A DNA stretch of 64,000 nt, from the NCBI GenBank assembly GCA_016871685.1, contig VHCM01000002.1, positions 1 through 64,000 of the forward strand. Direction: 5' to 3'. The stretch comes from Verrucomicrobiota bacterium. Lineage in GTDB: Bacteria; Verrucomicrobiota; Verrucomicrobiia; Verrucomicrobiales; Akkermansiaceae. Below the pieces are notes generated by a model that was not told the DNA's origin, made no database searches, and saw only the letters and a list, made by a program, of their open reading frames with translations. Positions 1 to 941 of this stretch are shown here, in pieces (the stretch's first letter is position 1; each line of letters starts with the position of its first letter). A program made the position numbers and the translations under genes.

Positions 1-521
1 TAGTCCTCAGCAATCTCCTTGCGAAAACTTGGATCGTCGTCGATATCGAAAACGAATTCTCCCACAATGGTTCCCCCTTCGATGTCACCTTTCCTTGAAT
101 CGAACAGGACGCAGTTGAAATAGGAGACCTTGTCGAAAAACGGCGTCTTTTCCAGTTGGTTAAGATGCGAGAAGTCAGCATGACTCAAGGTTGTGATCCG
201 TAGTGTCTGCTCGATCACCCAATTCTCGTTTTTTCGGATAACCCTGGTGGATTTCAGTTCCCCATCCGTGAAGTCGCGTTTTGCCGCAGAGTTGTTGCCG
301 CCTCCCAAGAATACCTCCAATGCCCTGCCTCTCCAATTTTTGTCCTTGGATGAGGACGGAACTTTGCCAACTGCGCGCCCCATCGAAATCACGGGGAGAG
401 CGAGGCTCACGCATTCCTTGAGAAGGGACGTCCGTTCCTTGATGGTTGATGCCCTATCGCCGTTGAGGACGGAGGGAGGAAAATGTTTTTCTCGTAGTTT
501 TCTGGCCAGTTCGACGCTCAT
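1..521 (-). CDS. MutH/Sau3AI-family restriction endonuclease (3' end outside window)
   Basis: This gene is not in the ORF track because it has no stop inside the window; I read it by translating the reverse strand. It opens with MSVELARKLREKHF and gives about 173 residues before the left edge. The core has W-x-G-x-x-LE-x-x-LG, then S, then RDF and GELKS, followed by IEQTLRITTL. This matches the order of E. coli MutH (GWVG..LLE..LGA..DF..ELKT..LETTF). The Glu-to-Asp spacing of 14 residues equals that of MutH Glu56-Asp70, and the ELK supplies the last two catalytic residues. Family members cut or nick at GATC-type sites, either as type II restriction enzymes or as MutH. The partner regulator overlaps its start by 68 nt. 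An in-frame TAA lies five codons upstream of the ATG, so this start is well bounded. A partner methyltransferase is expected off the left edge. Local GC is lower than in the neighbours. Confidence 0.8.
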   Translation of the reverse strand, partial: MSVELARKLREKHFPPSVLNGDRASTIKERTSLLKECVSLALPVISMGRAVGKVPSSSKDKNWRGRALEVFLGGGNNSAAKRDFTDGELKSTRVIRKNENWVIEQTLRITTLSHADFSHLNQLEKTPFFDKVSYFNCVLFDSRKGDIEGGTIVGEFVFDIDDDPSFRKEIAED

Positions 522-729: not shown

Positions 730-941
730 ACCTCAGGCTACCCGCTCCGGCAACACACTAAAGAGTTCAATGCAACCCCCATTTCCCGTCCTCCGGTCCG
801 GCCACCTGTTTCCGAGCCACGATTCAGGAGCGCGGCTCAAAGGCATTCGGGTCAGTCCTTGGATTTCAAGGAACGGACCCGTCGAAGCCCACGCTTGGCT
901 CACCGGGGACTTCATCCCCCATCTCCCCCACTTCCAAAAAG
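730..941. other. Spacer between R-M-like genes and tRNA-Asn
   Basis: I see no convincing gene here. It should hold the promoter of the XRE regulator on the minus strand. The composition shifts from the lower-GC island side to the high-GC chromosome across this stretch, so an island boundary may lie here, but the window shows only one side and no duplicated attachment sequence. Confidence 0.4.

Follow-up and report, generated by a model that had tools for sequence, protein, structure and literature searches.

A probable C-controlled type II restriction-modification operon with a MutH/BcnI-type nuclease, broken by a contig end in a Verrucomicrobiota genome

Overview of the system

Positions 1–771 of the window (the whole 64,000-nucleotide stretch analysed here, from a Verrucomicrobiota bacterium of the Akkermansiaceae) very probably represent the first part of a compact type II restriction-modification (R-M) operon in the order controller (C), endonuclease (R), and methyltransferase (M), which is broken by the end of the contig. 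The complete arrangement is found in G427, a metagenome-assembled genome (MAG) of the same genus. In all likelihood it is a conventional anti-phage restriction system that moves horizontally and belongs to a rare and poorly described branch. C would bind an inverted repeat immediately ahead of its gene and would control the joint transcript of C and R; R, with a predicted MutH/BcnI fold, would cut unmodified invading DNA, and M, a separate amino-methyltransferase that is probably of the N6-adenine type, would protect the host. Verrucomicrobiota thereby gain a C-controlled R-M system, of which neither the nuclease nor the methyltransferase passes a curated Pfam or NCBIfam model. The case also illustrates how an intact sister allows a gene that is cut at a contig edge and escapes the profile libraries to be placed.

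The truncated endonuclease gene

The first 173 residues of R, a predicted MutH/BcnI-type PD-(D/E)xK restriction endonuclease, are encoded at positions 3–521 on the minus strand. The sequence-only reading had proposed an open-ended gene at the window edge, and this gene is real: its open reading frame runs from an ATG at position 521 without a stop codon up to position 1. Contig C2 (71,717 bp, in an assembly of 189 contigs and 2.27 Mb) physically ends at position 1, so the gene is cut off by the assembly and cannot be extended leftwards. No second occurrence of bases 1–260 was found in the same assembly. The R of G427 is complete at 233 amino acids and shares 78% identity with the window's R across all 173 residues; by comparison with it, the missing C-terminal part beyond the contig end would comprise about 60 residues.

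Between the window and G427, dN for R is 0.133 and dS is saturated at ~2.4. As dN lies far below dS, the R frame is under purifying selection. A remote relative of 215 amino acids is encoded by G149, a genome of the same class from another family (BLASTP E = 4e-9 as a single comparison; E = 6e-7 in the genome search). The 78% identical same-genus protein, together with a remote relative at a significant E-value, indicates that R is more than a chance reading frame. In a scan of genome contigs, only the contig of G427 itself was matched, and a search of phages, plasmids, and viral contigs found no relatives of R. One further match in genome G465 (E = 4e-4) was dismissed, as it was out of frame and inside a 399-aa gene. 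An AlphaFold model built from two sequences had a pLDDT of 35 and was unusable.

A complete sister locus in G427

The locus in G427 lies on contig CAMCXJ010000011.1 and carries, all on one strand, the genes for C (72 aa), R (233 aa), and a 279-aa methyltransferase. R overlaps C by 11 bases, and M begins 17 bases after R. The best PADLOC match of the G427 controller is to control proteins (3e-17). Its M contains the motifs EPSAGDGAF and GNPPFG and matches the PADLOC model MTase_II at 3e-36, without passing any curated Pfam or NCBIfam model. Only G427, a MAG, is known to carry the system in full. In G424, a genome of the same genus, a contig starts inside an M gene sharing 97% identity with the G427 gene and runs into the same flank.

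The family of M (L010, 2220–3059) is frequent in phages, with 222 records at ~30% identity; many of these are V5-like Escherichia phages, in which the relatives are annotated as putative N6-adenine methyltransferases. Relatives of M also occur on plasmids without a MutH-type nuclease. In a 538-aa relative on a Roseivivax plasmid (L034, 2947–4563), the second half has no NPPF motif and appears to be a further copy of the C-terminal half of the first half. In the fused relatives from Roseivivax and Thioclava, a search for a nuclease half turned up no family. In genome G356, the gene ahead of a methyltransferase that shares 56% identity with the G427 enzyme encodes a 354-aa protein with no family match (L055, 5063–5917 and 5921–6985), and no MutH-type nuclease is present. 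The partner of the G427-type M family seems, from the G356 case, to be exchangeable.

Active site and family placement of R

The conserved residues of R follow the string DKNWRGRALEVFLGG..N..AAKRDFTDGELKSTRV...IEQTLRITTL, within which the motifs appear in the order DKNWRGRALEVFLGG, NN, KRDF, DGELKST, and IEQTLRITTL. The ordered MutH core and the 14-residue spacing from glutamate to aspartate that had been read by eye are indeed present in R, as E69-x13-D83-x4-E88-x-K90, with the catalytic stretch D83-FTDG-E88-L-K90. Judged by its residues, this core corresponds to a MutH/Sau3AI/BcnI-type active site. Five relatives all retain E69, E88, and K90, and D83 is kept in the window and G427 and replaced by N in two relatives. 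The spacing between D and E is that of the G149 protein and also that of BcnI, which has a D-x4-E-x-K active site (PMC4081073), whereas in the alignment MutH and Sau3AI have two residues more. The earlier assignment to a MutH/Sau3AI type stands as far as the MutH superfamily of endonucleases is concerned, but the spacing itself is BcnI's and not MutH's.

R falls below the cut-off of every curated nuclease profile. The match to PF02976 that the sequence-only reading had anticipated did not materialize, neither in the genome profile search nor by hmmscan at E-values up to 10. Against PF15515 (MvaI_BcnI), hmmscan returned a match spanning the core (E = 0.018) that scored 15.5 bits against a Pfam gathering cut-off of 25; the R of G427 has no PF15515 match. 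As both cut-offs were tested and missed, R cannot be assigned to either family. The G149 protein, in contrast, passes both PF02976 (2.5e-13) and PF15515 (1.2e-7), and PF02976 is reached only through this remote relative. With the single R sequence, MutH structures were matched at E = 1.1, while a three-sequence profile of the R, G427, and G149 proteins placed Sau3AI first among solved structures (4.8e-4) and MutH next. Via the transitive link through G149, R is predicted to be a MutH-superfamily PD-(D/E)xK nuclease, and we infer that it works like the restriction enzymes of that superfamily.

It is extremely improbable that R is instead a mismatch-repair MutH, working with MutS and MutL to nick hemimethylated GATC. 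The MutH equivalog NF003458 is the closest NCBIfam model (E = 0.0065), and R and MutH have the WxG..LE..LG and ELK core in common; however, R scores only 15.6 of the 243 bits required by that model, fails to match PF02976, and has an active-site spacing two residues shorter than that of MutH. Unlike a housekeeping repair gene, R has no homologue in nearly all of the 260 genomes of the family, and in G427 it is preceded by a C gene and followed by a methyltransferase gene. This full C-R-M locus supports the earlier suggestion of an acquired restriction system rather than a repair enzyme.

Among 289 genomes of the phylum, three PF02976 genes were found (L057, 2416–4898; L058, 2109–3822; L007, 5862–7380), all of them beside DpnA-like methyltransferase genes and one also beside a Dam-like gene. 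By their gene content, these loci are putative DpnII-like systems with a MutH-type nuclease. Since all three adjoin adenine-methyltransferase-like genes, the MutH-type nucleases of the phylum look like restriction enzymes in general, in keeping with the sequence-only reading. The DpnII-like systems (G149, G197, and G075) resemble the G427 locus in having a MutH-superfamily nuclease beside a methyltransferase. They differ in that their nucleases are above the PF02976 cut-off, their methyltransferases are DpnA-like of the beta class (PF01555) or Dam-like (PF02086), and no overlapping C gene was seen in them, whereas the system of the window and G427 has a controller and a different methyltransferase.

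Sau3AI and MutH (PF02976) recognize GATC, and the MvaI/BcnI endonucleases (PF15515) recognize and cut CC^WGG and CC^SGG, respectively. R has in common with Sau3AI and MutH the ordered core WxG..E..LG..DF..ELK, but Sau3AI has 509 residues and R is a single domain. With the MvaI/BcnI enzymes, R has in common the D-x4-E-x-K spacing and a similar size, as judged from the 233-aa protein of G427. On these sequence features, R appears to lie between the MutH/Sau3AI and MvaI/BcnI branches, which makes its target sequence worth determining. We tentatively raise the possibility, which we hold to be somewhat less than probable, that R represents an unnamed MutH/BcnI branch recognizing neither GATC nor CCNGG, and that its nuclease and methyltransferase were re-matched into a new specificity, the other members of the methyltransferase family being found with unrelated proteins or in phages.

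The controller gene and a candidate C-box

C is a small helix-turn-helix (HTH) controller of 91 amino acids with a GTG start codon, located at positions 454–729 on the minus strand; its gene shares 68 bases with the start of R. It matches HTH_3 at 6e-14, its best PADLOC match is Control_protein (1.9e-17), and its best matches among solved structures are C.BclI (7.8e-9) and C.AhdI (4.2e-8). The controllers of the window and G427 share 86% protein identity. The stop codon of the G427 gene (CAT TGA) corresponds to CGT CGA in the window, where C continues for 19 additional codons, reading over the beginning of R in a different frame.

A region of 42 bp upstream of C (positions 730–771, minus strand) is conserved in the DNA alignment with G427, and similarity is absent further upstream. 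Within it, a palindrome scan located a candidate C-box, ACTCT-TT-AGTGT, at positions 755–766 on the minus strand, 26–37 bases before the start of C; its counterpart in G427, ACACT-TT-AGTGT, is a perfect inverted repeat in the same conserved block. The layout described for C-controlled systems has the C gene ahead of the endonuclease gene, sometimes with a partial overlap, and a palindromic C-box in the promoter of the C gene to which the C protein itself binds (PMC4824078). The repeat found here, in its ACACT-TT-AGTGT form, differs from the GACT-tat-AGTC form of C.PvuII-like proteins (PMC4824078). As in type II systems of the PvuII, AhdI, BclI, and Esp1396I type, C lies before R and overlaps it, with an inverted repeat just upstream; set against these systems, the G427 locus has M following R on the same strand.

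A two-gene module of the toxin-antitoxin or another type, composed of the HTH protein and the nuclease and with the methyltransferase of G427 as an unrelated neighbour, could account for the resemblance of C to Y4mF/HipB-type antitoxin regulators (2.4e-13, under that model's cut-off) and for the relatives of M that lack a MutH-type nuclease in G356, phages, and plasmids. We regard such a module as very unlikely, given the gap of only 17 bp between R and M on one strand in G427, the controller-type HTH proteins that are the best PADLOC and structure matches, and the methyltransferases that adjoin related nucleases with PF02976 matches elsewhere in the phylum.

The methyltransferase in the window's own genome

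A methyltransferase next to the nuclease, named earlier as something to look for, is present in the sister locus of G427; in the window's own assembly none of this kind was found. That assembly is 95.6% complete and contains no homologue of the G427 methyltransferase; the contig ends before the expected place. By analogy with the G427 locus, M of the window's genome would lie just past the contig end. Such loci end contigs more than once, as in G424, so the truncation in the window looks like an assembly limit.

The missing methyltransferase, and likewise the stop codon that C has lost relative to G427, could also point to a decayed remnant in which R or M was lost after acquisition and the broken state of the locus is masked by the contig end. 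This is unlikely, however: R is open over all 173 residues with a dN far below dS, loss of M before R is normally lethal, and the G424 contig that starts inside M indicates that these loci tend to end contigs. An intact operon interrupted by the assembly is the preferred reading.

Searches of the assembly with PF01555 and PF00145 returned only an unrelated methyltransferase pair on contig C1 (51242–53069; L008, 8243–10070). The methyltransferase of this pair (411 aa; PF01555, 1e-14) has its motifs in permuted order and directly follows a 196-aa unclassified protein, which could be its nuclease. The pair adjoins an integron-integrase-like tyrosine recombinase.

Composition, flanks and mobility

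The XRE regulator in front of the nuclease and the lower GC content that had been remarked upon are both confirmed. R and C have GC contents of 51% and 54%, against 68% for the next gene, and GC3 is ~60% against 82%. Between the same two genomes, R is 78% identical and the RecQ orthologue 68% identical, a difference that fits transfer without proving it.

The edge of the unit is marked by a tRNA-Asn(GTT) gene directly upstream, predicted by ARAGORN at positions 941–1013 on the minus strand with its 3′-end facing the system; a search of positions 1–935 for an att-like repeat of the tRNA-Asn end was negative. The upstream context in the window consists of this tRNA gene and a nucleotidyltransferase-like gene, and that in G427 is a recQ/DUF4143 region. 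As similarity starts only 42 bp before C and the upstream contexts differ, C, R, and M appear to move as a unit. The nfeD-like gene located after the R-M genes in G427 has an unrelated neighbour in the window's genome, with no R-M genes. Directly upstream of the R-M genes in G427 (L032, 6600–8423), a DUF4143 ATPase gene is flanked on both sides by copies of the 5′ part of recQ, a duplication that is possibly the trace of an insertion.
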